NCBI RefSeq assembly: GCF_003584015.1
Contig: NZ_QXFM01000119.1
Span: 1-64,000 of the forward strand
Direction of reading: 5' to 3'
From: Aurantiacibacter xanthus
GTDB lineage: Bacteria; Pseudomonadota; Alphaproteobacteria; Sphingomonadales; Sphingomonadaceae
DNA: 64,000 bases
Below are positions 33,310 through 49,869 of the stretch, in pieces (the stretch's first letter is position 1; each line of letters starts with the position of its first letter). The translations under genes were made by a program, and so were the position numbers. The notes below the pieces were generated by a model, which was not told the origin of the DNA, ran no database searches, and saw only the letters and a list, made by a program, of their open reading frames with translations.

Positions 33310-34596
33310 TCACGCCAGACTCAACCGCAGGGCGAGCGCCGCCAACGTCACCAGCAGGATGGGCGTTGTCAGCGTGATGCCGACCCGGAAGTAATACCCC
33401 CAGCCGATTGTCACGCCTTTCTGGCCCAGCACATGCAGCCACAGCAATGTCGCCAGCGAGCCGATCGGCGTGATCTTCGGCCCGAGGTCGCAGCCGATGA
33501 CGTTGGCATAGATCATCGCCTCGCGCACCGCGCCGGTCGCACTGGTGGCGTCGATCGACAATGCGCCCACGAGAACGGTCGGCAGGTTGTTCATGATCGA
33601 GGACAGCACGGCAGCGATAATCCCGGTGCCGAATGCCGCGCCCCAGACCCCGCCTTCGGCCGTCCACTCCAGCAATCCGGCCACAGCCGCGGTGAGCCCT
33701 GCCTTGCTCAGGCCGTAGACGACCAGATACATGCCGAGCGAGAAGATCACGATCTGCCAGGGCGCTTCGCGGATTACCTCGCCGGTGGGGATAATGCGCC
33801 CCCGCACCGCGACGACGATGAGGACCAGCGCGCCAATGGCCGCCACGGCGCTGATCGGCACGCCAAGCGGATCGAGCACGAAGAAGCCGACCAGCAGCAG
33901 CGCCAGCACCAGCCAGCCTGCGCGGAACGTGGCATGATCGTGAATGGCCTCAACCGGAGCGCGCAATTGGCTGGCATCGTAGCGGGCCGGAATGTCCTTG
34001 CGGAAGAACAGCATCAGCGCGGCCAGCGTGGCCGCAATCGCGGCGAGGTCGACCGGCACCATCACCAGAGCATAGGCACCGAACCCGATGTCGAAGAAAT
34101 CGGCCGACACGATGTTGACGAGGTTCGAGACGACCAGCGGCAGGCTGGAAGTGTCGGCGATGAAGCCCGCCGCCATTACGAAGGCCAGCGTCGCTCTGGC
34201 GTTATAGCCCAGCGCCCGGAGCATCGCGATCACGATCGGGGTAAGGATCAGCGCGGCCCCGTCGTTGGTGAAGAGCGCCGCCACGCCTGCGCCGAGCAGC
34301 ACGACCAGCACGAACAGCCAGCGCCCGTTGCCACGGCCCCAGCGCGCGATGTGCAGCGCTGCCCATTCGAAGAACCCGGCCCGGTCCATGAGCAGGCTGA
34401 TGAGGATAACCGCGACGAAGGCTCCCGTGGCGTTCCAGATGATGTCCCACACCACGGGAATGTCGGCCAGCGAGATCACGCCGGTGGCAAGCGCCACCAG
34501 CGCCCCGGCGACCGCGCTCCACCCGATGCCGAGCCCACGCGGTTGCCAGATCACCAGCGTGATGGTGGCGACGAAGATGAGGGCCGCAAGAACCAT
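33310..34596 (-). CDS. arsB: arsenite efflux pump ArsB
   Basis: This 428-residue inner-membrane protein is close to E. coli ArsB throughout. [22 protein letters not shown]-like and [72 protein letters not shown] and [18 protein letters not shown] are in order. It exports arsenite or antimonite by proton exchange, or with an ArsA ATPase. Neither arsR, arsC nor arsA lies in the window. Its ATG overlaps the stop of a small upstream frame, and it is followed after 77 bp by the DUF2946 gene on the same strand. Confidence 0.95.
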
Positions 34597-36967: not shown

Positions 36968-37411
36968 TCACGGCCTGCCGCCCTTCCACACCTGCACTTC
37001 GCCAGCATCGGCATCGATGCGCAGCCAGTCGCCGGTTTCGATATGCTCGACCGGGTCGATATCGAAGTCGGTCATGCTGGGTACGCGCAGCACCACAGCG
37101 CCAAGCGCCGCTTTGGTGGTCGTGATCGTGAACAGCATGCCGATGGGCGACATGCCCGCCAGCCTGCTGGTGTGAAACACTGCTGACCAGCCCGAAGAAC
37201 CCTTGGCTCCCGGAAACACGAGGATCTTGCCCGCAAAGCTCACCCCGCGCAGTTCGTGGCGGCTTTCGATCACCTCGCCCTTCATCGGGTTGACGCCGCC
37301 CCAGCCGGAAATAGTCTGCTGTGTCGCCAGCGCTTCGCCTTCGACCACGCCGCCCACCACCTTGCGGCCGCGGATCACCAGATCGGGCTTGCGTGTTGCG
37401 GTTGTAGCCAT
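36968..37411 (-). CDS. aconitase X small (swivel) subunit
   Basis: This 147-residue protein has the swivelling beta domain of the aconitase family: LVIRGRKVVGGVVEGEALA, ISGWGGVNPMKGEVIESRHE, GKILVFPGAKGSSGWSAVF and a C-terminal VEHIETGDWLRIDADAGEV. The PGxxGSSxxS run binds the substrate carboxylate in AcnX enzymes. It overlaps the large-subunit gene by one base (TGATG), so the two form one enzyme. Characterised AcnX enzymes dehydrate cis-3-hydroxy-L-proline or mevalonate phosphate; neither is implied clearly by the neighbours. Confidence 0.86.
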   Translation of the reverse strand: MATTATRKPDLVIRGRKVVGGVVEGEALATQQTISGWGGVNPMKGEVIESRHELRGVSFAGKILVFPGAKGSSGWSAVFHTSRLAGMSPIGMLFTITTTKAALGAVVLRVPSMTDFDIDPVEHIETGDWLRIDADAGEVQVWKGGRP

Positions 37412-38700
37412 CAGTGCAGCCCTCCATTCCAGCGGCCGGTGCAGGCGGCATCGATGCAATCCTGCGTCGTGCCGAACCAGCCTTCGATGCCCATGATCGC
37501 GGGCAGGTAGTGCGTCTGCTTGGCGCTGTCGAAAGCGGCCACCTTCGTGCCCGGTGGCACGGCCTGACTGATTGCAGAGCAGGTGTCTGTCATCAGCTTC
37601 GCGCCGGCGGCGGCGAGGATGCGGTCGTAGCCCGAGGCCATGGCGGTCGCCTTCACCGCGCGGCTGGTGAAGATCCACAGCTCGGTGTTTGCGTGGACCT
37701 TGCGGCCTTCGAGCATCCGCGCCGCATCGGCGATCTGGTCGATCGAATAATGCGGGCAGCCGAGCATGATGTAGTCGACATCGCGGCTGCTGCCGATGGA
37801 ATTGAGCCGTTCGTAGACCTCTGCGCGTTCCTTCGCGCCGTAGGTAAAGGTCTCGCCCTTGTCGGCACCGCCGAAAGCCACTTCGCGGGTGGGCGCCTCG
37901 GGGGTGATGCCGAGCATGTGGTACATCTCGACCCCGCCCGACGAGGCCGCGGCCGCTCCGAAATGCTTGTGCTTGATCAGCGCCGCATCCGAGATGTCGC
38001 CCGACAGCACCGGGATCGCATCCTCCACCGCGGCGCCGGTGAAATAGCCGAGCATCCCCCATTCGAAGATCGAATCCACCGGCACCTCCACCTTGATGGC
38101 GTGCTGACCCTTGCGGAATGCGTCGGTGTGGAAGCCCCAGTTGGGAATGCGCTTGGCCAGCATGGCGGCGCTGGTGCTCTCGCGGCCCTCGCAGTTGGTG
38201 CGCCCGCCGATCACCGAGTTGCAGAACACCACCGCGCTCGATTCCATCCACGCGCAGTGTTCGCCCATCACCGGCACGTTGCCCGCGAGATAGGGGGTGC
38301 AGGTCTTCATCACCTGAATGCCGTGTGCGGCGACTTCGGCTTCGTCGCTGCGGAAGTTGGCGAAGGCTTCCTCGGTCATCCCCTGTTCGCGCCACAGCTC
38401 GGGGTCCATCCCGCCTTGCAGGTGGCACGAGAAACCGTTCATGCGCGGCACGTCGACCACTTCGTCGCTGTCGAGATCGAAGCGCGAGAATACCGCGCGA
38501 TAGTCGCCGCCGTCTTCCTTGTAATAGTCCTTCACCCACTTTGGCGAGGAACCCGGCACCCCGGCGATATTGTTGCAGTAGACAAAGTCGGGCGCGTCGA
38601 GTGCTTCGGCATAGCGGATCAGCAGGTCCATCGCCTTGGCGACGGCTGGCCCCTCGGCGCCGTCGCGCATGGCTTTTTCCGCATCGGTCAGACTTACCAT
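37411..38700 (-). CDS. aconitase X large (catalytic) subunit
   Basis: This 429-residue protein is the AcnX catalytic part (DUF521). FVYCNNIAGVPGSSPKW, GFSCHLQGGMDPELW, TCTPYLAGNVPVMGEHCAWMESSA, FCNSVIGGRTNCEG and DYIMLGCPHYSIDQI are family blocks. Several conserved Cys could hold an iron-sulphur cluster. It is a hydro-lyase. Its start overlaps the IlvD/Edd gene by 7 bp and its stop the small-subunit start by 1 bp, so three genes for two dehydratases are tightly coupled. The substrate is unknown. Confidence 0.88.
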   Translation of the reverse strand: MVSLTDAEKAMRDGAEGPAVAKAMDLLIRYAEALDAPDFVYCNNIAGVPGSSPKWVKDYYKEDGGDYRAVFSRFDLDSDEVVDVPRMNGFSCHLQGGMDPELWREQGMTEEAFANFRSDEAEVAAHGIQVMKTCTPYLAGNVPVMGEHCAWMESSAVVFCNSVIGGRTNCEGRESTSAAMLAKRIPNWGFHTDAFRKGQHAIKVEVPVDSIFEWGMLGYFTGAAVEDAIPVLSGDISDAALIKHKHFGAAAASSGGVEMYHMLGITPEAPTREVAFGGADKGETFTYGAKERAEVYERLNSIGSSRDVDYIMLGCPHYSIDQIADAARMLEGRKVHANTELWIFTSRAVKATAMASGYDRILAAAGAKLMTDTCSAISQAVPPGTKVAAFDSAKQTHYLPAIMGIEGWFGTTQDCIDAACTGRWNGGLH

Positions 38701-40382
38701 TTGGGTTCTCCCCGAGTGTTGGCCATGTCGATCAGCACCGCTCCGGTGCCCATTTCCTGAACGTCGCGGCGGTACATACCGAGCCAGCCAGCGGCGGGCA
38801 CGGCGAATTCGTCGCCCGGGCCGGGGCGGGCGGCCAGTTCCTCTGCCGGCACCATCACGTCGATGCGCCGCGCGGCCACGTCGATCTCGACAGGGTCGCC
38901 GTCGCGCACCAGCCCGATGGGGCCGCCGACCGCGCCTTCAGGGGCGACCTCGGCGATGGTCAGGCCCTTGAGGCACAGGCCCGAGAGCTGCCCGTCTGTA
39001 ACAAAGGCCACGTCCTTGGCGAGCCCCGCCGCATCAATCGCGAACAGGATATTGGAGGCCCCGCCGCCCATCGCCGGGCCGCCCTTCAGGCCTTGCCCGC
39101 GCAGCACGAGAACATCGCCCTTCTGCACCGTGCCGCTGGCGATAGCCTCCATTGCCTGCGCGGTGGTCTCGAACACCCGCGCCGGGCCGGAGAAGGCCTC
39201 GGGCCGGGAGCCGTCGCGGATACCCAGTTTCACCACCGCGCTTTCCGGCGCCAGCGAACCCTTGAGGATCGCAATCGACGGACCTTCCGAGATGGGGTTT
39301 GCGAGCGGGCGAATGACCTCATCGTCGGCCACTGTAACTTCGGAAAGGTCATCGGCCAGCGTCTTGCCCGAGGCGACGATCACCTCGGCATCGAGCAGGC
39401 TTTCGAGCTGCTTCATCATCGCGCGCGCGCCGCCTGCATCCTCGAACTCCTCGATCCGGCGCGGCCCGCTCGGGCGCACGGCGGCGAGGGTGGGAACAAC
39501 GCGGCCCATGTCCTCCCAGATCTGGAACAGGTCGATGTCGAGCCCGCCCTCTACGGCCACAGCCTGCAGGTGCTTGATCGCATTGATCGAGCCGGAGACC
39601 GCCAGCACCATGGCGGCCGCGTTGCGGAATGCGCCCTCTGTCATGATCTGGCGCGGGGTGAGGCCCTCGTTGACCATCTCGACGATCCGCGCGCCTGCCT
39701 CGCGGGCATAGGCGAACATCTTGTCCGAATTGGCGCGCACCGGGGCGGAACCGGCCACGCACATGCCCAGCGCCTCGACCACGCAGTGCATGGTGTTGGC
39801 CGTGGCCATACCCGCGCAGACACCGGGGCCGCGCACGGCCTGTTTGGTCATCGCGTCGACCGAGTGCTTCATCGCGCCGCCCAGCCTCTCGCGCACGCCG
39901 CCGGAGAACAGGTCTTCGATATCGACATGGTCGCCGTCGATCATGCCCGAGGCCTGATAGCCGCCGATCACGAGGATGGTGGGAATGTTCATCCGCATGG
40001 CGGCCATCAGGTGGCCGGGCGGGGTCTTGTCGCAGGAGGTGAGGCAGACCATCCCGTCGAGCAGCGCGGCCTCAACCTGAGCCTCGATGTCGTTGGGGAT
40101 CAGATCGCGCCCGGCGAGGATATAGCTGCCCTGCCGCGCGGCCCCGGTGATGAAGTCCGAAGGCGCGGTTGTGCGCACTTCGAACGGCACACCGCCAGCG
40201 GCGCGGATCGCCTCTTTCACCTGTTTGGCCACGCCATCGAGATGGGCGTAGCACACAGCCAGTTCGGAGGAGGAATTGACCACCGCGATCTTCGGCTTGG
40301 CGAGGTCTTCCTCAGACAGACCCAGCGCCTGCCAGTGCGCGTGGCGGACGGGGGAATTGGCGGCGAGACTTCTCAGGGTCAT
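38694..40382 (-). CDS. IlvD/Edd family dehydratase, [2Fe-2S] type
   Basis: This 562-residue dehydratase has the family core: VVNSSSELAVCYAHLDGVAK, LDGMVCLTSCDKTPPGHLMAAMRMN, GVCAGMATANTMHCVVEALGM, and VTDGQLSGLCLKGL near the C-terminus with the likely catalytic Ser. Cys44, Cys117 and Cys189 have the spacing of [2Fe-2S] dihydroxy-acid and sugar-acid dehydratases. It is unlikely to be the housekeeping IlvD, because it is embedded with aconitase X and a TonB receptor. A sugar-acid substrate (aldonate) is a reasonable guess. The C-terminal tail, GAVLIDMANTRGEPKW, is unusual. Confidence 0.87.
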   Translation of the reverse strand: MTLRSLAANSPVRHAHWQALGLSEEDLAKPKIAVVNSSSELAVCYAHLDGVAKQVKEAIRAAGGVPFEVRTTAPSDFITGAARQGSYILAGRDLIPNDIEAQVEAALLDGMVCLTSCDKTPPGHLMAAMRMNIPTILVIGGYQASGMIDGDHVDIEDLFSGGVRERLGGAMKHSVDAMTKQAVRGPGVCAGMATANTMHCVVEALGMCVAGSAPVRANSDKMFAYAREAGARIVEMVNEGLTPRQIMTEGAFRNAAAMVLAVSGSINAIKHLQAVAVEGGLDIDLFQIWEDMGRVVPTLAAVRPSGPRRIEEFEDAGGARAMMKQLESLLDAEVIVASGKTLADDLSEVTVADDEVIRPLANPISEGPSIAILKGSLAPESAVVKLGIRDGSRPEAFSGPARVFETTAQAMEAIASGTVQKGDVLVLRGQGLKGGPAMGGGASNILFAIDAAGLAKDVAFVTDGQLSGLCLKGLTIAEVAPEGAVGGPIGLVRDGDPVEIDVAARRIDVMVPAEELAARPGPGDEFAVPAAGWLGMYRRDVQEMGTGAVLIDMANTRGEPKW

Positions 40383-40408
40383 GCGGGGCGTCTTTCGGGA
40401 AAGATGGC

Positions 40409-40444
40409 AAAAAAGCCGGCCAGACTCCGCTGGAGCCCGGCCGG
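40409..40444 (-). terminator. intrinsic terminator after the TonB receptor gene
   Basis: Reading the minus strand, CCGGCC (40444-40439) pairs with GGCCGG (40421-40416) around an inner CTCC/GGAG stem with an AGC loop. One C then precedes six T (40414-40409). It lies 13 bp after the receptor stop and 27 bp before the dehydratase start, so it should reduce but perhaps not abolish read-through. Confidence 0.75.
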
Positions 40445-40457
40445 AGAGGGGATCAGG

Positions 40458-43394
40458 TCAGAACCGGGCGCGTACACCGCCCTTGAACATCCGGCCCACG
40501 GGGTTGAACAACACGTTGTTGCCCGCGCCGTTGGCACCGGGGAAGGTGGGCGGGTTCTGGTCGAACACGTTGTCGATCCCGGCGAAGATCTCGAAGCGCT
40601 GGCCGGAGGCCGGGAGCAGCCGGTAGGTCGCCATCAGATCGACATAGGTGCGCGAGGGCAGTTCGTTGATGTTCACGCTGTTCGGGTCCTCGAACGAGAA
40701 ATCCGGATCGCCGGGGGCGACGAAGGTGGGGAAGAAGAACCCCTTGTCGATCCAGCGCACGTGAGTGTTGAACGAGAAGGCTTCGCCAATATCGAGCGCG
40801 ATATTGGCATCGAGCGTCCAGTCCGGCGCGCCCGACGGGGTGCCGCCGCGCAGGCCGGTCTGCCCGGCGCGCTGGGTTGCGCCCACCGAATCGTAGGTGA
40901 TGAGATCCTTCACATGGTTCGCCAGCAACATCACCGAGAGCTGGTTGTCGCCGCCAAGCGGCTGGCGATAGTTCAGCTGGAAGTCGATCCCGCGCGCGAC
41001 CAGACGGTTCACGTTCTGGATCGTATCGTTGATGTTGGTGACATTGTTCGAAGCATCGCGGGTAATCAGCGAGCACGACAGCGTGTCGCCATCTTCGCAG
41101 CGCTGCACGATGTTCTGCTGGCCCAGCGTGCCGATCGCGTTCGAAATGTCGATGTCGTAATAGTCGACCGAGGCGCGGAACTGGCTGAGGAAGCCTCCGG
41201 TCGGTTGCAGCACCACGCCTGCGGTAAAGGTGTCGGCTTCTTCAGGAAGGAGGCTGGCGTTCGAGCCCTTGGTGATTGGCACGATCACCTGCACCCCGCC
41301 GTTGCCGACGTCGGTCAGGATGCCGGTGGTGGTGGTTTGCGGGCCGAACAGCTCGGGCACGTTGGGCGCACGAATATCGCGTGAGCGGGTAACGCGCATC
41401 CGCACCGCCTCGACCGGTGCCCAAACCGCGCCGAGCTTCCAGGTAGTCGCATTGACCGAGGAACTGTCCGCGAAGGCGGAGGAGCGGTTGTAGTGCGTCT
41501 GCCGGATTGCACCGCTGAGGCCGAGCTCCTCGGCAAAGGTCACGCCGCTGAGCAGCGGCACGTCGACTTCGGCATAGCCTTCGACCACTTCGACCTTGCC
41601 CGCGATTGCCGATCCGTTGCCGGCGTTGAAGAACCCGCCAGCCTTCGAGATGTCGTCGGTGTCGCCGCTGAGATCGTCGCTGCGGTACTCCCCGCCGAAC
41701 GCCACACCGACCGGGCCGCCGGGCAGTTCGAACAGGCTGCCGGCCACGTTGGCGGCAACGATGTGCTGCGTGGTGACGCTGGTCTGGAAGCCCGAGCCGG
41801 TGACGTAGGCGACCGCCTGGTCGAAGTTCGCGCCCTGGCCATAGCCGAAGGGATTGAGCGGAACGCAGGACGGATCGTCGTTGGCAGGATTGGCATCGGC
41901 GTTCACACGGCACACAGGCACCCCGCCGACGCTGGTTGCGTCGAGCGCTTTCACGATGTTGGCGGTGATGGTGTTGTTGGTGAGATCCGAGCGGAACGAG
42001 TTGCGGCCATACTGATAGTAGGCGTCGGCGGTCCAGCCGCTGCCCAGCTCGTATTCGAGCCCGGCCACCACCCGGAACACGCGGTTTTCCGCCTTGATCT
42101 GCGTTGCCCCGACATCATGGAAGCCTTTGCCGAGGGTGAAGCTGGTCGCCCCGGAACTGGCAAGGATCGTCGGAATATCGAGGGTTGGATCGTTCGAGCG
42201 CGGGATGAACGGGTTATCGTCCTGGATGACGATGCCGATATTGCGATAGGCGGTCGAGCGGTGGCGGCCATCGGCTCCGCCCACGGTCACGCCCAGTTCG
42301 AACGAGAGATCCTCGCTTGCTTGCACAGTCAGCAGGCCCATTGCGCTGTAGCGTTCGGTGGGGGAGACGATCGGGAAATCGAAGTAGGGGTTTTCTTCAG
42401 CGGGCGTGCCGGTTTCGCCGCCCACCATCCAGATGCGGTTGGCATAGGAGCCGAACTGATAGCGCCGGGGCGTGCCATCGTTGTTGAAGGTGATGCCGTC
42501 GATCGGGCGCAGCACCGGCACATCGACACCGGTAAAGGCGCTGGCGGGCGGAGTGGTGACACCCTGATAGTCGGCGCTCCAGGTGGCGGCATTGGGCAGG
42601 ATGTTCGAGGCCGGGCGGTCGGGTGACTGACCCGCGGCGAGCGGATTGCGCCCGATGATCGTCATGCCGTTCACGCACCAGTCGCGGTCGCGGCAGGCGT
42701 CGATCCCGTCGGACTTCTCCCACTCGCCACCAACCACGAGGTGAACGTTGGAGCCGAAGTCCCAGCCGCCGGCCACGCCGACCTGACGGGTGAGGTTGTC
42801 GTTCCGGTTCGAGATGCCGAACTGGGCGTTGGCCTTGTAGCCGGTGAAGTCGCGGTCGAGAATCAGGTTTACGACGCCCGAAACCGCGTCGGACCCGTAG
42901 ACCGCCGAGGCACCGCCGGTCACCACATCGGCGCGGCTGAGCAGGATCGAGGGGATCATGTTGGTGTCGACCGTGCCCTGCGTGGTCGAGGAGACGAACC
43001 GCTTGCCGTCAACCAGCGTCAGCGTGCGCACCGCGCCGAGGCCGCGCAGGTCGAGGATGCGGCCGCCGATATTGAGGCCGGGGCCGGGGTTGAGACCCGA
43101 GGTCGCCGGACTGGCCGTGGCGGAAAAGCTCGGCAGTTCGTTCAGCGCATCGCCGAGGTTGGTGATGCCGCGCTGTTCGATCTGGTCCGAGCCGAGCATC
43201 GTGACCGGCGTGGGCTGCTCGAAGCTCGAACGAATGCGCGAGCCGGTGACGACGATCATGCTGTTCTCGCCACTCGCTGCCGTTTCGGACGGTGGCGAGG
43301 CGGCTGCCTGATCCTGCGCCTGTGCGGCAGAGGACAAGCCAATCGCAAGTGCAAACGCGCAGGTAGTTGCCGAAAAGACGGTGGCCTTCGTCAT
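40458..43394 (-). CDS. TonB-dependent receptor of the IlvD/AcnX locus
   Basis: This 978-residue outer-membrane receptor has a signal peptide (MTKATVFSATTCAFALAIGLSSAAQAQ). The plug has IVVTGSRIRSSFEQPTPV, LGDALNELPSFSAT, ILDLRGLGAVRTLTLVDGKR and ADVVTGGASAVYGSDAVSGVVN. The barrel ends GGVRARF. The plug resembles the large sphingomonad/xanthomonad receptors for plant-derived molecules. The start at 43394 has GGGAG five bases upstream; ATG 43397 directly before it is possible. It is divergent from a LysR gene and upstream of the two dehydratases, so it likely imports their precursor. Confidence 0.9.
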   Translation of the reverse strand: MTKATVFSATTCAFALAIGLSSAAQAQDQAAASPPSETAASGENSMIVVTGSRIRSSFEQPTPVTMLGSDQIEQRGITNLGDALNELPSFSATASPATSGLNPGPGLNIGGRILDLRGLGAVRTLTLVDGKRFVSSTTQGTVDTNMIPSILLSRADVVTGGASAVYGSDAVSGVVNLILDRDFTGYKANAQFGISNRNDNLTRQVGVAGGWDFGSNVHLVVGGEWEKSDGIDACRDRDWCVNGMTIIGRNPLAAGQSPDRPASNILPNAATWSADYQGVTTPPASAFTGVDVPVLRPIDGITFNNDGTPRRYQFGSYANRIWMVGGETGTPAEENPYFDFPIVSPTERYSAMGLLTVQASEDLSFELGVTVGGADGRHRSTAYRNIGIVIQDDNPFIPRSNDPTLDIPTILASSGATSFTLGKGFHDVGATQIKAENRVFRVVAGLEYELGSGWTADAYYQYGRNSFRSDLTNNTITANIVKALDATSVGGVPVCRVNADANPANDDPSCVPLNPFGYGQGANFDQAVAYVTGSGFQTSVTTQHIVAANVAGSLFELPGGPVGVAFGGEYRSDDLSGDTDDISKAGGFFNAGNGSAIAGKVEVVEGYAEVDVPLLSGVTFAEELGLSGAIRQTHYNRSSAFADSSSVNATTWKLGAVWAPVEAVRMRVTRSRDIRAPNVPELFGPQTTTTGILTDVGNGGVQVIVPITKGSNASLLPEEADTFTAGVVLQPTGGFLSQFRASVDYYDIDISNAIGTLGQQNIVQRCEDGDTLSCSLITRDASNNVTNINDTIQNVNRLVARGIDFQLNYRQPLGGDNQLSVMLLANHVKDLITYDSVGATQRAGQTGLRGGTPSGAPDWTLDANIALDIGEAFSFNTHVRWIDKGFFFPTFVAPGDPDFSFEDPNSVNINELPSRTYVDLMATYRLLPASGQRFEIFAGIDNVFDQNPPTFPGANGAGNNVLFNPVGRMFKGGVRARF

Positions 43395-43487
43395 CATATC
43401 TCCCTTTCCCACTGTGATCGTGGTTGTTGGGCAAGGGGATATGCAGCGTTGAGTGAACGGACAATATGCCATAATGAGACGCCAGCG

Positions 43488-43502
43488 TTCGCAGATCGCG
43501 AA
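43488..43502. promoter_or_regulatory. putative LysR box between the TonB receptor and LysR genes
   Basis: TTCGCAGATCGCGAA has perfect 5-bp arms and contains the T-N11-A pattern of LysR sites. It ends 16 bp before the LysR ATG and about 95 bp before the divergent receptor start, a usual place for autoregulation and activation. Confidence 0.5.
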
Positions 43503-43518
43503 TAATGGGAAGAGCGTT

Positions 43519-44457
43519 ATGGACACTCTGGTGAATATCCGCACCTTTCTGGCCGCCGCCAGTCTGGGCAGCTTTGCCGCCGCCGCGCGGGCCGAGCGGA
43601 TTGCGCCATCGGTGGTGTCGAAGCGGATCGGCCAGCTTGAGCATCAGTTCCGGGTAACGCTGTTTCACCGCTCCACGCGGGAGATCCTGCTGACCTCGGA
43701 CGGGCGCCGCCTGTTGCCGCAATGCCAGCGCTTGCTCGCGCAATATGAGGAAATCGCCGAGCCGGAGGCGACCGAGACCGTGCGCGGGCACTTGCGCATC
43801 GACGCGCCGGGCACCGTGACCAACCGCATCTTCGGCCCGCTGTTTGGCGAGTTCATGCAACTCCATCCCGAAGTGACGATCGACTTGCGACTGATCGACC
43901 GCCTGAACGACCAGCTCGATCTGGATTGCGATCTGACCATCGGCGCGCGCCCCTCGACCAGCGGACAGGTCGTCGAGATTCCCCTGATGCCTTATTCCAA
44001 CGCGACCTATGCCAGCGCACGCTATTGCGAGGAGTTTGGGACGCCAGTCCATCCTCACCAGCTGATGGAGCACAAGTGTCTGGCCTCGTTGCTCTATGGG
44101 AACACCTGGCACTTCTATAGCGAGCACAACGATTTCGCGGTGAGGGTGCAGCCACGGTTCCAGGTCAACGATGCGCTCGTGTTGCGCGAAGCGGTCCGGC
44201 AGGGGCTGGGGGTGGCCGTGCTGCCCTCGATACTGGTGGCCGACGACGTTGCGAGCGGCGCGTTCGTCAGGCTGTTGCCCGATTTTCGGCCACCGCCGCT
44301 CTGGCTCAAGGCGATGGTGCCCAGCCAACGGATGCTGAAGCCCAATGTGCGGGAACTTGTTGCTTTTCTGCAAGAAAAGCTCGCTATGGCGCAGGAGAAA
44401 TCAGGCGCTGAAATGTGGAATGTGTTGCCGCACAGGCAGCAAGTGGACTTTCAGTAG
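43519..44457 (+). CDS. LysR-family transcriptional regulator
   Basis: This 312-residue regulator has an N-terminal helix-turn-helix (FLAAASLGSFAAAARAERIAPSVVSKRIGQLEHQF, then LFHRSTREILLTSDGRRLL) and a substrate-binding domain (HLRIDAPGTVTNRIFGPLFGEFMQLHPEVTIDLRL, then AVRQGLGVAVLPSILVADDV). The ATG at 43519 has GGAAGAG six bases upstream. It is divergent from the TonB receptor of the IlvD/aconitase-X locus and is the best candidate regulator of that locus. The ligand is unknown. Confidence 0.9.
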   Translation: MDTLVNIRTFLAAASLGSFAAAARAERIAPSVVSKRIGQLEHQFRVTLFHRSTREILLTSDGRRLLPQCQRLLAQYEEIAEPEATETVRGHLRIDAPGTVTNRIFGPLFGEFMQLHPEVTIDLRLIDRLNDQLDLDCDLTIGARPSTSGQVVEIPLMPYSNATYASARYCEEFGTPVHPHQLMEHKCLASLLYGNTWHFYSEHNDFAVRVQPRFQVNDALVLREAVRQGLGVAVLPSILVADDVASGAFVRLLPDFRPPPLWLKAMVPSQRMLKPNVRELVAFLQEKLAMAQEKSGAEMWNVLPHRQQVDFQ

Positions 44458-44813
44458 CCTCGGTCCGATCCGGGGCTGAACCGTGAAAATTGCGGCCATC
44501 TCATGGTTTCATCTTGCGGCAATCTCTTAGACTGTTCTGTCAGTATCTATTTCAATGTGTGCTGGCATTCTTTCAGGGGCTTCGAATTGGCGGAAATATG
44601 CTCTTCGGGCGGCCACTATTTTGCATCTCGTCGGTTGAGCCTCAATGGCTGCGGTGACCGTTAAGATTGATGGAAAATCAGAGGGTAACGCTAAATCGTC
44701 CCACTTTGATAGACATATGTTAGGAACACTTGCTCCAAGGTCAGCAGCGGCATAGCTGACTGATTATCGGCGCGTTTTTATCGCGCGCTGATATGCCTGG
44801 GGGACAAACAAAG
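44458..44813. other. 356-bp intergenic region before the glycan locus
   Basis: The composition is visibly more AT-rich than the flanking genes. No open frame with a ribosome site is seen. Short complementary arms GCGCG/CGCGC around a T-rich loop lie near 44769-44785. A promoter for the glycan operon probably lies here, but I cannot place its boxes with confidence. Confidence 0.5.
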
Positions 44814-45794
44814 ATGCGTGGTACTTTGAAGGGAAGTACGATTGTCACAGGTGGGGCGGGTTTCCTCGGCTCCTTCCTGTGCGAAAGGCTGCTCGAACGC
44901 GGCGAAGATGTGGTCTGCATCGACAACTTCTTCACCGGGCGGAAAGAAAACATCCGCCAGCTCATGGATAACCCTCGCTTCGAGGTGCTGCGCCATGACG
45001 TGACCGTTCCCCTGCAAATCGAAGCGGATGCGATCTACAATCTGGCCTGCCCGGCCAGCCCGATGCACTATCAGTTCGATCCGGTGCAGACGACGAAGAC
45101 CAGCGTGCTCGGGGCGATCAACATGCTCGATCTGGCGCGTCGGACCAAGGCGCGCATTCTGCAGGCCTCCACTTCAGAGGTCTACGGCGATCCGAAGCAG
45201 AGCCCGCAAGCCGAAAGCTATTGGGGACACGTCAATCCCATCGGCCCGCGCGCCTGCTACGACGAGGGCAAGCGCTGCGCCGAGACGCTGATTTTCGATT
45301 ACCGCCAGCAGTATGGCCTCAGCACCAAGGTCGCCCGCATCTTCAACACCTATGGCCCGCGGATGCGGCCTGACGACGGGCGCGTCATATCGAACTTCAT
45401 CATTCAGGCGCTGCGCAATCAGCCGATCACGATCTATGGCGATGGCGAGCAGACCCGGTCCTTCTGCTACGTCGACGACCTGATCGACGGGCTCATCCGG
45501 CTGATGGATGCCCCGGAAGAGACCTGCGGCCCGATCAACCTTGGCAACCCGGTGGAATTCACCATCCGCGAACTGGCGGACCTGGTGATCGCGCAAACCG
45601 GATCGCGCTCGGTGATCGAGCAGCATCCGATCCCCGTCGACGATCCCAGACAGCGCCGACCCGACATCACGAAGGCGCGGCAAAGCCTTGATTGGGAGCC
45701 GGAAATTCAACTGAAGCAAGGCCTCGAAAAGACCATCTCCTATTTCGAGCAATTGCTGCGGGATAACGATCAGCTGACGTTGCACCTGCCATGA
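44814..45794 (+). CDS. UDP-glucuronate decarboxylase (UDP-xylose synthase)
   Basis: This 326-residue short-chain dehydrogenase/reductase converts UDP-glucuronate to UDP-xylose. It has the NAD motif [17 protein letters not shown], the strongly diagnostic [41 protein letters not shown], the catalytic YDEGKR (YxxxK), and [11 protein letters not shown]. The ATG at 44814 gives a start close to the conserved fold and has GGGGGAC upstream; ATG 44793 is also in frame. It opens the surface-glycan operon and overlaps the GalE gene by ATGA. Confidence 0.92.
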
Positions 45795-46768
45795 AGAGGG
45801 TCTTCGTTACCGGAGGCGCGGGGTATGTCGGCGCGCATTGCTGCAAGGCCTTTGCGGCCGATGGCTGGGAAGTCGTCACGTTCGACGATCTCTCGCGCGG
45901 TTGGCGCGAAGCGGTGCGGTGGGGGCCGCTGATCGAGGGCTCGCTGCTCGACCGCGAGGCGCTGGGCCGCGCGATGGATGAGACCAGGCCCGACCTCGTC
46001 GCCCACTTTGCTGCCTTCGCCTACGTCGGGGAGTCGGTCGGCGATCCCGGCCTTTACTATCGTAACAACACGGTGGCTTCGCTCAACCTGATGCAGGAAC
46101 TCGTGGCGCGCGCGGCGGTGCCGGTGCTGTTTTCGGGAACCTGCGCCTCTTACGGCAATCCGCAGTTCCTGCCGATCACCGAAGATCACCCACAGGTGCC
46201 GATCAATCCCTATGGCTGGTCCAAGCTGTTCGTGGAGAAGATGCTGCACAGCTTTCATGCCGCCCACGGGCTGAACTCGGTAACGCTGCGCTATTTCAAC
46301 GCCGCCGGGGCCGACCCGGACGGCGAGATCGGCGAGCGGCACGAGCCGGAAACGCATGCCATCCCGCTCGCGATCGAGGCGGCCATCAACGAGGCGGCGG
46401 ACTTCACCGTTTTCGGGACCGATTTCGATACCCCGGACGGCACTCCGGTGCGCGACTATATCCATGTGACCGATCTGGCCGATGCCCATGTTCGCGCGGC
46501 GAACTATCTGCTCCGCGAGGCTGGTTGCCATGCGTTCAATCTGGGCACCGGTCAGGGCACCAGCGTGAAGGAGCTTCTCGCGGCGGTGGCGCGCGCGGTG
46601 GGGGCGGAGCCGAAGGTGACCTGGGGCGCACGGCGGGCAGGCGATCCGGCGATCCTCGTGGCCTCGGCGCAAAAGGCGAAAAGCCACCTTGGCTGGACAC
46701 CCGCTCACTCGTCCATCGAGGAGATTGTCGAGAGCGCCCTGACATGGCGCAACAGCATGGGCCGATAG
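45791..46768 (+). CDS. galE: UDP-glucose 4-epimerase family protein (GalE-like)
   Basis: This 325-residue enzyme has the NAD motif [28 protein letters not shown] with the catalytic Ser/Thr, YGWSK with the catalytic Tyr and Lys, and [24 protein letters not shown], all typical of GalE. It epimerises UDP-hexose C4. Because it overlaps the UDP-xylose synthase gene, UDP-xylose to UDP-arabinose is an equally likely use. The next gene, a glycosyltransferase, starts directly after its stop. Confidence 0.88.
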
Positions 46769-47758
46769 ATGGCAGGCGCTCCAGACAGGGGCACCGTCGC
46801 CGTGGTGATCCCCATGTACAACGCTGCCGAAACAATCGAGCGAACGCTGCAAAGCGTGCGTGCGCAGACCTATGCCGATCTCGATATCGTGGTGGTCGAT
46901 GACGGGTCGGGCGATCGCGGGCCCGAGCTTGTGATGTCCGTCGCCGCGCGCGATCCGCGGGTCAGGCTGGTCCGGCAAGGCAATGGCGGTGTGGCCGAGG
47001 CCCGCAACCACGGCGCGGCCCTGACCACGGCCCCTTATCTGGCCTTTGTCGATGCCGACGATCTGTGGGCGCCGGAAAAGGTCGCGGCGCAAATGGCCTT
47101 GATCGCCGGCGGACCGCCAGCGCTCGCCTATTGCTGGTTCTGCCAGATCGACCGGCGCGACCGGGTCTATCGGCCCAGCTACCGTCCGCCCAGCTACGAG
47201 GGCGATGTCAGGCGGCAACTGGCGGGCGAGAACTTCATCGGCAACGGCAGTTCGATGCTGATGCATCGCGAGGTGTTCGACGTGGTCGGCGGCTTCGATG
47301 CCGAGCTGCGCGCGAAGGGTGCGCAAGGCTGCGAGGATTACATGTTCGCCATGGCGGCGGCGCAGCATTTTCCGTTCCGCTGCGTGCCCCGCCGACTGGT
47401 GGGCTACCGTATCATGCGGGGGAACATGTCCAGCGATGCGGAAAAGATGGTCCGGTCATACGAACTGGTGGTCGAGCGTTTCGCGCGCGAGATGGCCGAC
47501 TATCGCGACGAGTTCGTCGACCATCACCGCAACTTCCTGCTGTGGCATGCCCAGCGCGCGGCCATGGAGGGCGCACGCAAGAGAGCCATCCTCATGATGC
47601 GTCGGCTTCAGCAAGATCATGCGTTTGCGTCGTCTTCGCTGTGGCTCGAACTGGTTGGATTCTATATCAAGGCGCTCTTGACGCCGCGCTGGTTGAAAGA
47701 TTGCGTCGCCCGCATGGGGCTGATTTCACGCCCGAGATATCAGGACGGCACTTGGTAG
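46769..47758 (+). CDS. family 2 glycosyltransferase
   Basis: This 329-residue cytoplasmic GT-A enzyme shows VAVVIPMYNAAETIERTLQSV, IVVVDDGSGDRG and the metal-binding DAD in LAFVDADDLWAPEKV. An acceptor-side GGFDAELRAKGAQGCEDYMF follows, with ED as the likely base. It should add one sugar to the surface glycan whose nucleotide precursors come from the two genes before it. Its start abuts the GalE stop. Donor and acceptor cannot be read from the sequence. Confidence 0.87.
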   Translation: MAGAPDRGTVAVVIPMYNAAETIERTLQSVRAQTYADLDIVVVDDGSGDRGPELVMSVAARDPRVRLVRQGNGGVAEARNHGAALTTAPYLAFVDADDLWAPEKVAAQMALIAGGPPALAYCWFCQIDRRDRVYRPSYRPPSYEGDVRRQLAGENFIGNGSSMLMHREVFDVVGGFDAELRAKGAQGCEDYMFAMAAAQHFPFRCVPRRLVGYRIMRGNMSSDAEKMVRSYELVVERFAREMADYRDEFVDHHRNFLLWHAQRAAMEGARKRAILMMRRLQQDHAFASSSLWLELVGFYIKALLTPRWLKDCVARMGLISRPRYQDGTW

Positions 47759-47854
47759 GCCTTTGCTCGCAATGAAAACCGTTCGGTCTGCAACAGGCTT
47801 TGGGAAGAGAGGCGGGGCCTGTTCCGGTCGCCTCTTCATGGGACATTGGCGGTC

Positions 47855-48643
47855 ATGCTGAGGGCGCGCACTTTCGACCGCGATCGGCTCGTCCATTTGC
47901 GCGATGTTATTTTCGTGTTGGTGCGGCGCGATTTCCGTGCCCGCTACAAGCACACCAGTGTTGGCATGCTGTGGTCGGTCCTGAACCCGCTGCTGTTTCT
48001 GGCGATCTTCTATGTGGTTTTCGCGCATGGGCTGGATCTGCTTGAAACCCCGCGCCTGAGCGGCATCTTTATCGCGATCCTGTCATGGCAATGGGTGCAG
48101 GCGGGGCTCAACCAGGCCGCCGCCAGCATCACCGGCAACGCCAATCTGATCGGTCAGCCGAGCTTCCCGGTCGAGGCTTTGCCGGTGGTCTCGACCATCT
48201 CCTCGCTGGTCAACTTCCTGATCGCGCTGCCACTGCTTGCCATGTTCATGCTGTTCGAGGGGTTCACCCTCGGGGCGAGCGCGCTGTGGCTACCGGTGAT
48301 CCTGGCGATTCAGTTCGTGATGATCCTCAGCGCGAGCTATTTCGTGGCGGCAATGAATGTCGGTTTTCGCGATGTCGAACAGAGCCTGCCGATCGTGTTG
48401 CAACTCGGCTATTTCATCACGCCGATCTTTTACGAGCTGGGCAGCCTGTCCAGCAGCATCAAGGCCTTCGTGCTGCTTAATCCGGTCACGCATCTGGTGG
48501 AGGCCTATCGCGCAATCCTGCTGCGACAGGAGGCGCCCGACTGGGGGGCGCTGAGCGTCATCCTGGCGGGCTCGCTGCTGCTGCTGATCGTGACGGTGGC
48601 CTATTTCCGATCGGCCCGCTCGCGCTTTCTGGAGGAGCTATGA
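47855..48643 (+). CDS. ABC-2 type polysaccharide export permease (Wzm-like)
   Basis: This 262-residue membrane protein has about six segments, including WSVLNPLLFLAIFYVVF, SLVNFLIALPLLAMFML, LWLPVILAIQFVMILSASYFV, GYFITPIFYELGSL and a final SLLLLIVTVAYFR. It begins with the cytoplasmic DVIFVLVRRDFRARYKHTSVGMLW of O-antigen and teichoic-acid exporters. It works with the ATPase encoded next, overlapping by ATGA. ATG 47855 is taken as the start; a TTG at 47846 is in frame. The 96 bp before it hold no other feature I can name. Confidence 0.89.
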   Translation: MLRARTFDRDRLVHLRDVIFVLVRRDFRARYKHTSVGMLWSVLNPLLFLAIFYVVFAHGLDLLETPRLSGIFIAILSWQWVQAGLNQAAASITGNANLIGQPSFPVEALPVVSTISSLVNFLIALPLLAMFMLFEGFTLGASALWLPVILAIQFVMILSASYFVAAMNVGFRDVEQSLPIVLQLGYFITPIFYELGSLSSSIKAFVLLNPVTHLVEAYRAILLRQEAPDWGALSVILAGSLLLLIVTVAYFRSARSRFLEEL

Positions 48644-49869
48644 GCGAGGTTGTGTTGCGCGCCGAAGGGGTGGGCAAGGCCTTTCGGCGCTATGCCACGC
48701 CCAATCCGGCCACGATGAAAGAGGCACTCCTGCGCGGCTTTTCGCGCGGGAAGGCTGAGCGGGTCTGGGCCCTGCGAGGGGTCGATCTGGAGGTCGAGGC
48801 CGGGGCGATGGTGGCTGTGATCGGTCATAATGGCGCGGGCAAGTCGACCCTCCTGCGTCTGCTGGGCGGCGTGATGCGCCCCGATGAAGGGCGGATCGAG
48901 CGGCGCGGACGAACCGCTGGTCTGCTTGACCTCAACGTCGGGATGCATCCGGAACTGAGCGGGCTGGAAAACCTCCAGATCGGCGGCGTCGTCGCGGGGC
49001 TGACCCGGCAGCAGGTCGCCCGTCGGATGGACGAGATCATCGCCTTTTCCGAACTTGAGCCTTTCATCGAGGCCCCGTTCCGCACTTACAGCAGCGGGAT
49101 GAAGATGCGGCTCGGCTTCGCGGTGGCGTCGCATGTCGACCCCGATATCCTGCTGGTGGACGAGGTGCTGTCGGTGGGTGATCTCTCGTTCCAGAACAAG
49201 TGCCTTGAGCGGATCGAAACGATCAAGCGGCAGGGCACTGCCGTGGTGCTGATCAGCCACGATCTCGAACAGGCCGAGAGGCTGTCCGACAAGGTGATGT
49301 GGTTGCGGCAGGGCGAGGTCGTGGCGGTGGGGCAATCGGCAATGATCGTCGGCGACTATCGCGCGGCGATGTCGAGCAAGTCGCGCGCCGTGACACCGAG
49401 CGGGAAGCCCGATCGCGTTCTGGCGATGGGCCATGTGCTGCGAACCCACGAAAACCGCTTCGGGTCGATGGAGATGGAGATCGAAGACCTGCGCCTGCTT
49501 GGCGCAAAGGGAGAGCCTGTCAGCGAGATCGGACCGACCGATCCGCTCACCATCGAAATCGAATATCGTGCCGAGACCGGGGTTGCTCCGATTATCGGGC
49601 TCAGCATCGGCCGCGATGACGAGGAGGTGATCGACATCTCGTCCGAAGGCGACCGTATCGAGCTTGCGGGCGGCTCCAATCGGGTGGCGGTGAGCTTCAA
49701 GGGCCTCGATCTCAAGCCGGGCGACTACGCGGTGAGCGTTGGGCTATACGAGCCGAGCTGGGCCTATGCCTATGACTACCACTGGCGCGCCTATCCGCTG
49801 ACTGTCACCGGGCAGGCACGTGACGATCGCTCGGGGCCACCGCGCCGGTGGACGGTGCAGTCTCGCTAG
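48640..49869 (+). CDS. ABC polysaccharide export ATPase with C-terminal carbohydrate-binding domain (Wzt-like)
   Basis: This 409-residue protein has an ABC domain with Walker A GHNGAGKST, signature YSSGMKMRLGFAV, Walker B DILLVDE and the switch LISHD. It is followed by a C-terminal beta domain of about 150 residues (from MEMEIEDLRLLGAKGE to YDYHWRAYPLTV). Wzt proteins of this kind bind the glycan end before export. The last 65 bp overlap the 3' end of a convergent glycosyltransferase gene. Confidence 0.92.
   Translation: MSEVVLRAEGVGKAFRRYATPNPATMKEALLRGFSRGKAERVWALRGVDLEVEAGAMVAVIGHNGAGKSTLLRLLGGVMRPDEGRIERRGRTAGLLDLNVGMHPELSGLENLQIGGVVAGLTRQQVARRMDEIIAFSELEPFIEAPFRTYSSGMKMRLGFAVASHVDPDILLVDEVLSVGDLSFQNKCLERIETIKRQGTAVVLISHDLEQAERLSDKVMWLRQGEVVAVGQSAMIVGDYRAAMSSKSRAVTPSGKPDRVLAMGHVLRTHENRFGSMEMEIEDLRLLGAKGEPVSEIGPTDPLTIEIEYRAETGVAPIIGLSIGRDDEEVIDISSEGDRIELAGGSNRVAVSFKGLDLKPGDYAVSVGLYEPSWAYAYDYHWRAYPLTVTGQARDDRSGPPRRWTVQSR

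Follow-up and report, generated by a model that had tools for sequence, protein, structure and literature searches.

A possible hydroxy-acid catabolic module combining AcnX, an IlvD/Edd dehydratase and a PF12831 flavoprotein, approached from a locus of Aurantiacibacter xanthus

Organization of the locus

A stretch of 64,000 nucleotides of Aurantiacibacter xanthus (contig NZ_QXFM01000119.1, positions 1 to 64,000, hereafter the window; the contig is C112 of a 4.38 Mb genome) carries a compact locus coding for a two-subunit aconitase X (AcnX), a dehydratase of the IlvD/Edd superfamily (IlvD-1), a TonB-dependent receptor and a divergently transcribed LysR regulator (Table 1). Coordinates and Pfam scans confirmed this gene set as it had been described in an initial annotation, including overlaps of 1 bp between the two AcnX genes and of 7 bp between the genes of IlvD-1 and the AcnX large subunit (AcnX-L). 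In related loci, AcnX and IlvD recurred with a third partner, a flavoprotein of family PF12831 whose gene is absent from the window locus itself. Our results tentatively suggest a conserved hydroxy-acid catabolic module in which the two dehydratases would work in parallel around this flavoprotein.

The most likely start codons are ATG 43397 for the receptor gene (its open frame reaches 43544) and ATG 43519 for the LysR gene, since they yield the same lengths (979 and 312 residues, respectively) as in a close relative, locus L052 of Aurantiacibacter suaedae. This is also the nearest of the named AcnX loci described below (AcnX-L 98% identical).

Table 1. Features of the AcnX-IlvD locus in the window.
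Feature	Position	Strand	Size and supporting matches
AcnX small (swivel) subunit	36968..37411	-	147 aa; PF01989 77 bits, E 9e-22; TkAcnX small subunit E 3e-23
AcnX large subunit	37411..38700	-	429 aa; PF04412 341 bits, E 1e-101; TkAcnX E 2e-46; AtAcnX E about 1e-37
IlvD/Edd dehydratase (IlvD-1)	38694..40382	-	562 aa; PF00920 + PF24877
Terminator-like hairpin with T tail, receptor/IlvD junction	40416..40444	-	13 pairs, then T run
TonB-dependent receptor	40458..43397	-	979 aa; PF07715 + PF00593
LysR regulator, divergent	43519..44457	+	312 aa; PF00126 + PF03466

Gene neighbourhoods of AcnX relatives

A scan of genome contigs yielded 415 relatives of the window AcnX, the best 80 of which are referred to as named loci. 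Their hosts were sphingomonads, other Alpha-, Beta- and Gammaproteobacteria, and a few acidobacterial contigs. Neighbouring genes were called with our own script, trained on ten genes of the window, and families were labelled by Pfam scans of one or two members combined with BLAST clustering. Assignment was by sequence similarity for the PF12831 type in L118 and L131 and for the plasmid flavoproteins (L240, L241, L243 and L246-L248).

Within 10 kb of AcnX, a PF12831 flavoprotein of any type was called in 51 of the 80 named loci, IlvD in 38, an AAHS-like MFS transporter in 26, the receptor family of the window in 20, TctC and MarR in 18 each, IclR in 16, TauD and GMC in 10 each and the LysR family of the window in nine; these counts are lower bounds since the script misses some genes, such as an annotated flavoprotein gene in Polaromonas. 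Among the 50 loci with 8 kb available on both sides, the flavoprotein occurred in 36 and IlvD in 26 (in the remaining 30, one flank is shorter than 8 kb). The IlvD subfamily lay within 8 kb of AcnX (start to start) in 39 of 83 loci (the named loci, L048, L049 and the window). Compared with only 36 IlvD copies in 397 family genomes (see below), this linkage ruled out a chance neighbourhood of the two genes. The distance matrices of AcnX-L and IlvD over the 39 loci were correlated (r = 0.918).

The initial annotation had regarded the five genes of the window as the unit to be conserved. This did not hold, as the flavoprotein was the more constant partner and the receptor, the regulator and the inner-membrane transporter were exchangeable. 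The two main PF12831 types (about 20% identical) occurred in 28 and 21 of the named loci and never in the same one. Likewise, the receptor family and TctC were never found together, so that both pairs look like exchangeable parts. Sequence comparison thus shows a joint recurrence of AcnX, IlvD and the PF12831 flavoprotein across Alpha-, Beta- and Gammaproteobacteria, as well as on at least one acidobacterial contig, with interchangeable acid transporters and regulators. Compact runs of IlvD, flavoprotein and AcnX were present in Paroceanicella and in L238, and the acidobacterial locus L120 displayed IlvD, AcnX and flavoprotein within 9 kb. A search of plasmids starting from the IlvD side gave eight records, all of which had the flavoprotein (by BLAST similarity, with a gap below 6 kb), directly adjacent in six of them; AcnX was found on two of the eight.

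More distant AcnX relatives displayed other surroundings. In L049 (AcnX 49% identical), the operon contains a short-chain dehydrogenase (SDR), an aldehyde dehydrogenase and an amine-oxidase-like flavoprotein in place of IlvD and PF12831. On a plasmid of Cupriavidus necator (L134), a 37% identical AcnX is followed by a TctC-like gene, a lactonase-like protein and two RraA-like genes.

Distribution among genomes

The search of 397 genomes from the family of A. xanthus returned AcnX-L matches in 118 (E <= 0.001). Short aconitase-like matches accounted for 96 of these; the other 22 hold a true AcnX, of which two Asp-type proteins of about 30% identity were dropped and 20, at least 49% identical (one over 263 residues only), were counted. 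The IlvD subfamily occurred in 27 family genomes (36 copies in total) and the PF12831 flavoprotein in 33. The flavoprotein accompanied 26 of the 27 IlvD genomes and 18 of the 20 AcnX genomes. The two AcnX genomes devoid of it have another flavoprotein near AcnX, of the second PF12831 type in G195 (L082) and amine-oxidase-like in G278 (L049).

AcnX and IlvD were found together in 14 family genomes, which, with the 38 named loci, settles that they co-occur beyond A. xanthus. Six genomes had AcnX without IlvD and 13 had IlvD without AcnX. Within the 33 flavoprotein genomes, the two dehydratases were independent of each other (both in 14, AcnX alone in four, IlvD alone in 12, neither in three; odds ratio 0.88, p = 1.0, a value that is descriptive only because the co-occurring genomes are related).

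These figures bear on the two models that the initial annotation had put forward, successive and parallel dehydration. Since each dehydratase often occurs without the other and seldom without the flavoprotein, a parallel arrangement around a flavoprotein hub is favoured, although not proven. A successive scheme, with IlvD and AcnX as consecutive steps on one polyhydroxy acid, would agree with the overlapping genes in one operon and with the correlated distance matrices. It would also agree with the distribution of IlvD-1 copies (at least 73% identical), which occurred in 11 family genomes, all with AcnX; IlvD-1 alone could remain the consecutive partner. Yet the 13 and six genomes with a single dehydratase, their independence within the flavoprotein genomes and the scarcity of AcnX on IlvD plasmids make successive dehydration quite improbable.

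Phylum-wide, six of 398 genomes carried the IlvD subfamily, two of them outside the family. One of these (L238) displayed IlvD, AcnX, flavoprotein, MFS, porin and MFS genes in one run; the other (L239) has IlvD and flavoprotein within 20 kb, with no AcnX in that stretch.

The flavoprotein and the second locus of A. xanthus

The genome of A. xanthus holds one strong PF12831 gene, on contig C131 (L152), where it adjoins a second IlvD (IlvD-2, 68% identical to IlvD-1). Since locus L056 contains the receptor, IlvD-1, AcnX, flavoprotein, MFS transporter and IlvD-2 in a single run, A. xanthus seems to carry the module in two pieces: the window has the receptor, IlvD-1, AcnX and LysR, and C131 the flavoprotein and IlvD-2. 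The C131 locus also contains a TauD dioxygenase and two TonB-receptor-like genes. Genes for an aminotransferase, PhaC, a phasin, ClpS and LptF/G near IlvD-2 were considered as pathway genes and dropped, their setting being a housekeeping chromosomal one.

The flavoprotein was assigned to PF12831 by Pfam scan and modelled with a pLDDT of 84.8. Its fold matches (Foldseek, VIA-align) were tied among many flavoproteins, with Z scores of 16.9-19.3 in the rows listed: the geranylgeranyl-reductase-like 3oz2 (Z 19.3, rmsd 4.2 over 299), FixC 7koe_C (Z 19.2, rmsd 4.9 over 314), MnmG 3ces (Z 19.0, rmsd 5.0 over 318), urocanate reductase 6t85 (Z 18.9, rmsd 3.4 over 241) and fumarate reductase 1jrx (Z 18.8, rmsd 3.6 over 244). 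The predicted structure indicates a flavoprotein fold and no particular reaction. In a sequence search of the PDB, matches were limited to the FAD motif or other short stretches.

The matches to urocanate and fumarate reductases, among the many others, would suit a branched dicarboxylate route. There, the flavoprotein would be a fumarate-reductase-like desaturase, AcnX an aconitase-like (de)hydratase acting on a 2-substituted malate and IlvD a dehydratase of the matching 2-substituted tartrate. Several neighbours also point that way: the TctC and TRAP acid transporters, the two RraA-like genes near the AcnX of L134, and an Amdase-family gene in L118 with a relative in L131, this family including maleate isomerase. 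In addition, the subclass-specific Lys100 and His80 of AcnX (see below) could bind a second carboxylate. This route is nevertheless unlikely, as the fold match fails to separate reductases from MnmG, geranylgeranyl reductase and monooxygenases, and no constant enzyme of such a route was found among the loci.

A plasmid of the anaerobic acetogen Sporomusa termitida (L135) carries relatives of AcnX (31%), of the flavoprotein (about 33%) and of the MFS transporter (about 31%), together with a LysR gene; genes for Etf, an acyl-CoA dehydrogenase and a CoA-transferase lie alongside. The presence of module relatives in an anaerobe suggests that the flavoprotein-linked step is independent of oxygen. 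Further flavoprotein relatives (about 33-36%, L244 and L245) belong to operons with a CoA transferase and an enoyl-CoA hydratase, and have ferredoxin genes nearby.

AcnX: conserved residues and class

Both the catalytic and the swivel domain of AcnX (PF04412 and PF01989) scored above their cut-offs. Residue conservation was counted over 83 large-subunit and 84 small-subunit sequences of the subclass. In the large subunit, Cys134, Cys315 and Cys374, the putative cluster ligands, as well as Glu153, Ser154, Lys394 and Tyr398 were identical in 83/83 sequences, and the catalytic-type Ser72 of the small subunit (AcnX-S) was found in 84/84. AcnX-S further distinguished itself by near-invariant Trp37 (83/84), Asn44, Gly74, Phe79, His80 and Lys100. 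Position 88 of AcnX is Asn in 31/83 sequences.

According to the excerpts available of PMC8184944, the AcnX enzymes of types I and IIa dehydrate cis-3-hydroxy-L-proline, and in AtAcnX (type I) Asp203 and Thr72 hold the amino group of hydroxyproline and a Trp packs on the substrate ring. Hydroxyprolines were among the candidate substrates of the initial annotation. AtAcnX and the window AcnX have the fold family, the catalytic Ser, Glu, Lys and Tyr, the ring-packing Trp and two cluster cysteines in common. In contrast, AtAcnX is a single fused chain with a C-X-C arrangement, whereas the window AcnX consists of two subunits, has a third cysteine (Cys315) as in archaeal AcnX and has lost the amino-group residues. 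AtAcnX Asp203, Thr72, Cys71 and Ile206 correspond to Ala46, Gly74, Ser73 and Pro49, and Asp at the first position occurred in 0/83 subclass members and in both family members of about 30% identity (L050 and L051). Hydroxyproline dehydratase identity was rejected on these residues, and the idea of such an enzyme lying beside an unrelated IlvD is barely credible, given also the strong linkage of AcnX to IlvD and the flavoprotein. Neither a pyrroline-2-carboxylate reductase nor other lhp genes were found among the scanned neighbours, many neighbours lying outside the scan.

TkAcnX, the type IIb mevalonate 5-phosphate dehydratase (PDB 7CNR/7CNS), has the same two subunits, three cysteine positions and catalytic residues. 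The window enzyme differs in being bacterial and linked to catabolic-type genes, and in the landmark positions: TkAcnX Ser50 and Asn53 (phosphate side), Leu27 and Val64 are replaced by Pro49, Ser52, Trp37 and Gly74. The same excerpts report a [3Fe-4S] cluster for the archaeal type IIb enzyme, the active form being assumed to be [4Fe-4S], and describe types IIc-IIf as lacking both landmark sets and awaiting characterisation as of 2021 (PMC8184944). These types are likewise bacterial and two-subunit, and it is their group that the window AcnX resembles in its residues.

IlvD: an altered motif set

The window IlvD displayed the features of the IlvD/Edd superfamily, i.e. N- and C-terminal ILVD_EDD domains, the cysteine motifs, CDK (44/44 subfamily members) and the catalytic Ser, all in common with DHAD and the sugar-acid dehydratases as presented in the excerpts of PMC9314677. 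It stayed under the cut-off of all eight NCBIfam models matched (446 bits for TIGR00110, against a cut-off of 618). Its identity to the further IlvD/Edd proteins encoded by A. xanthus was 30-40%, with the exception of the second copy (68%).

Its motifs are SCDKTP, GVCAG and SGLC, with a C-terminal Trp. Across the subfamily, SGLC or SGLV occurred in 44/44, SCDKT in 43/44, GVC[ASQ]G in all and a C-terminal His in 0/44. This contrasts with DHAD and the sugar-acid dehydratases, for which SGTA or SGGT is the rule at the first of these positions. The window protein carries neither the SADHT set (GCDKTT, GHC(M/N)T, SGTA, C-terminal His), nor the BCADHT set (GCDKNM, GACGG, SGGT), nor the PADHT set (GCDKTT, GTCSG); within the subfamily, SCDKTT occurred in 4/44 and GVCSG in 15/44. 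By these motifs, the subfamily falls outside the three described [2Fe-2S] classes. Characterised IlvD/Edd enzymes display SGTA, SGGT or a related motif bearing a threonine that is important for activity (PMC9314677, in excerpt). Since this threonine is replaced in SGL[CV], the active site is probably shifted in the subfamily.

Receptor, regulator and transporter

In A. suaedae L052, a gene for an MFS transporter lies between those of the receptor and IlvD. The 1.46 kb holding this gene is missing in the window (40382-40458), the DNA alignment continuing on both sides. The closest match to it in the A. xanthus genome, among the best six of 45 matches, was only 48% identical, whereas five related loci had copies reaching 68-79%. 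The window operon therefore appears to have lost its former inner-membrane transporter. The MFS transporter was closest to an aromatic-acid family, with a score under the cut-off of that family.

The receptor may form a separate transcript because of the 13-pair hairpin and T run that separate it from IlvD. Against this, the scan recorded only three terminator-like sites where shuffled sequences gave 5.3, and it revealed no promoter-like site. The hairpin and the disappearance of the linking MFS gene would both be understandable if only IlvD and AcnX were linked and the receptor and LysR were unrelated neighbours (e.g. an iron or haem receptor). This is very unlikely, since the same receptor family was found in 20 of the 80 named loci, mostly upstream and on the same strand (L061 and L072 being exceptions).

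Elsewhere in the window, an ArsB-type arsenite efflux gene (33310-34596; TIGR00935, 669 bits) lies near the locus. A run of sugar-nucleotide epimerase, glycosyltransferase-like and ABC-transporter-like genes (44793-49869) resembles polysaccharide export clusters; its first gene was identified by family scan and the others by reading their translations.

Substrate leads

Neighbouring genes offered several leads. In Pigmentiphaga (L121, L122 and L129), a crotonase and a feruloyl-CoA synthase (proteins identified in L122) follow IlvD on the same strand. In Variovorax, a flavoprotein about 62-64% identical to the AcnX-linked ones is accompanied by TctC, two alpha/beta hydrolases, a TIM-barrel protein, an annotated shikimate dehydrogenase and an SMP-30 protein. 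A flavoprotein-IlvD-TctC group in Polaromonas adjoins D-glycerate and other hydroxyacid dehydrogenases, an aldehyde dehydrogenase and two enzymes of the mandelate racemase family, and three Cupriavidus plasmids share several gene families of this neighbourhood. In strain SYK-6 (L064), genes for a TauD dioxygenase, a thiamine-diphosphate (TPP) enzyme, an MFS-type protein and an 844-aa protein lie beside AcnX on the opposite strand.

The feruloyl-CoA synthase, shikimate dehydrogenase, 2-hydroxyacid dehydrogenases and acid transporters suggest, as a lead only, a hydroxy or hydroaromatic acid of plant origin, of a kind that frequently occurs as a hydroxycinnamate ester. The leads do not fully agree and none is decisive. 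The membership of IlvD in its superfamily and the dehydrogenases and mandelate racemase relatives in Polaromonas, with the similar Cupriavidus plasmids, could also speak for an aldonate or aldarate route in which both dehydratases serve sugar acids. We consider it distinctly unlikely: the C-terminal His and SGTA absent from the subfamily are both typical of sugar-acid dehydratases (PMC9314677 and PMC11316719, each in excerpt), and the MFS transporter came closest, below cut-off, to the aromatic-acid family.

Proposed module

In the proposed module, a small hydroxy acid would enter through the TonB receptor (porins elsewhere) and then through an MFS, TTT or TRAP transporter. IlvD would turn an alpha,beta-dihydroxy acid into a 2-oxo acid by removal of water. 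AcnX would dehydrate a beta-hydroxy acid, Ser72 taking the alpha-proton and the hydroxyl leaving via the Fe-S cluster, Glu153 and Lys394, by analogy with AtAcnX. The two enzymes would work in parallel, their substrates being related to each other (e.g. stereoisomers), and the flavoprotein, as maker or user of a C=C or C=O compound, would be tied to either route. We regard such a conserved hydroxy-acid catabolic module, with parallel dehydratases around a PF12831 hub, as a serious possibility placed slightly short of an even chance. From the possible new catabolic pathway of the initial annotation, it retains the idea of a conserved module of catabolic type that has a dedicated uptake system, and replaces the core by the flavoprotein.

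A number of observations weigh against this proposal. In 29 of the 80 named loci, nearest relative L052 included, gene calling gave no PF12831-type gene within 10 kb of AcnX, and three loci (L052, L059 and L111) had IlvD without a called PF12831 gene. Conversely, the displayed stretches of the Variovorax and Polaromonas flavoprotein loci contained no AcnX. Other neighbours (TauD, GMC, PQQ dehydrogenase, RraA aldolases, SDR, aldehyde dehydrogenase) varied between lineages, so that a single common substrate is not assured. The parallel arrangement was derived from presence and absence, and an unrelated enzyme could replace a missing dehydratase; the constant company of AcnX and IlvD-1 would also fit a pathway needing both. 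Moreover, the co-occurring genomes are related (seven genera of the family for IlvD and 11 for the flavoprotein), and a few of those scored negative for a gene are incomplete genomes (G268 73%, G275 86% and G117 87%).

A bolder version, which we hold to be doubtful, would have up to three Fe-S dehydratases of two unrelated superfamilies (AcnX, IlvD-1 and IlvD-2) handling different stereoisomers of a single hydroxy acid, with a PF12831 flavoprotein of new function connecting them. Such a set of stereoisomers would account for so many dehydratases being needed. AcnX would then be the first of its subclass with a function, and IlvD a fourth [2Fe-2S] class, devoid of the threonine.

A known parallel is tricarballylate catabolism, where TcuA and aconitase provide, like the module, a flavoprotein, an aconitase-family enzyme and a dedicated acid transporter; the protein families differ from those of the module and IlvD is absent. 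The initial annotation had known of no described pathway joining a two-subunit AcnX, an IlvD-type dehydratase and TonB uptake, and full-text searches found no paper joining the two enzymes among the matches listed. The excerpts of PMC8184944, the only listed paper containing both terms, mention ILVD/EDD only as another [2Fe-2S] superfamily, those of PMC12997858 and PMC8191317 do not name the genes of the set, and a search for literature joining SYK-6, TonB-dependent and aconitase found none.

Significance

The enzyme families involved are known ones; their combination and chemistry would be new. AcnX of the type IIc-IIf kind gains a genetic setting that is testable in cultured bacteria, and two further enzymes, the altered-motif IlvD class and the PF12831 flavoprotein, are now named. 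SYK-6 is a strain used in lignin-breakdown studies. Since the genome matching its record (G144) holds AcnX, the IlvD subfamily and two flavoprotein copies, the module is accessible to work in a well-studied strain. Should the substrate indeed be a plant acid, a widespread route of soil and rhizosphere bacteria would have been overlooked so far.

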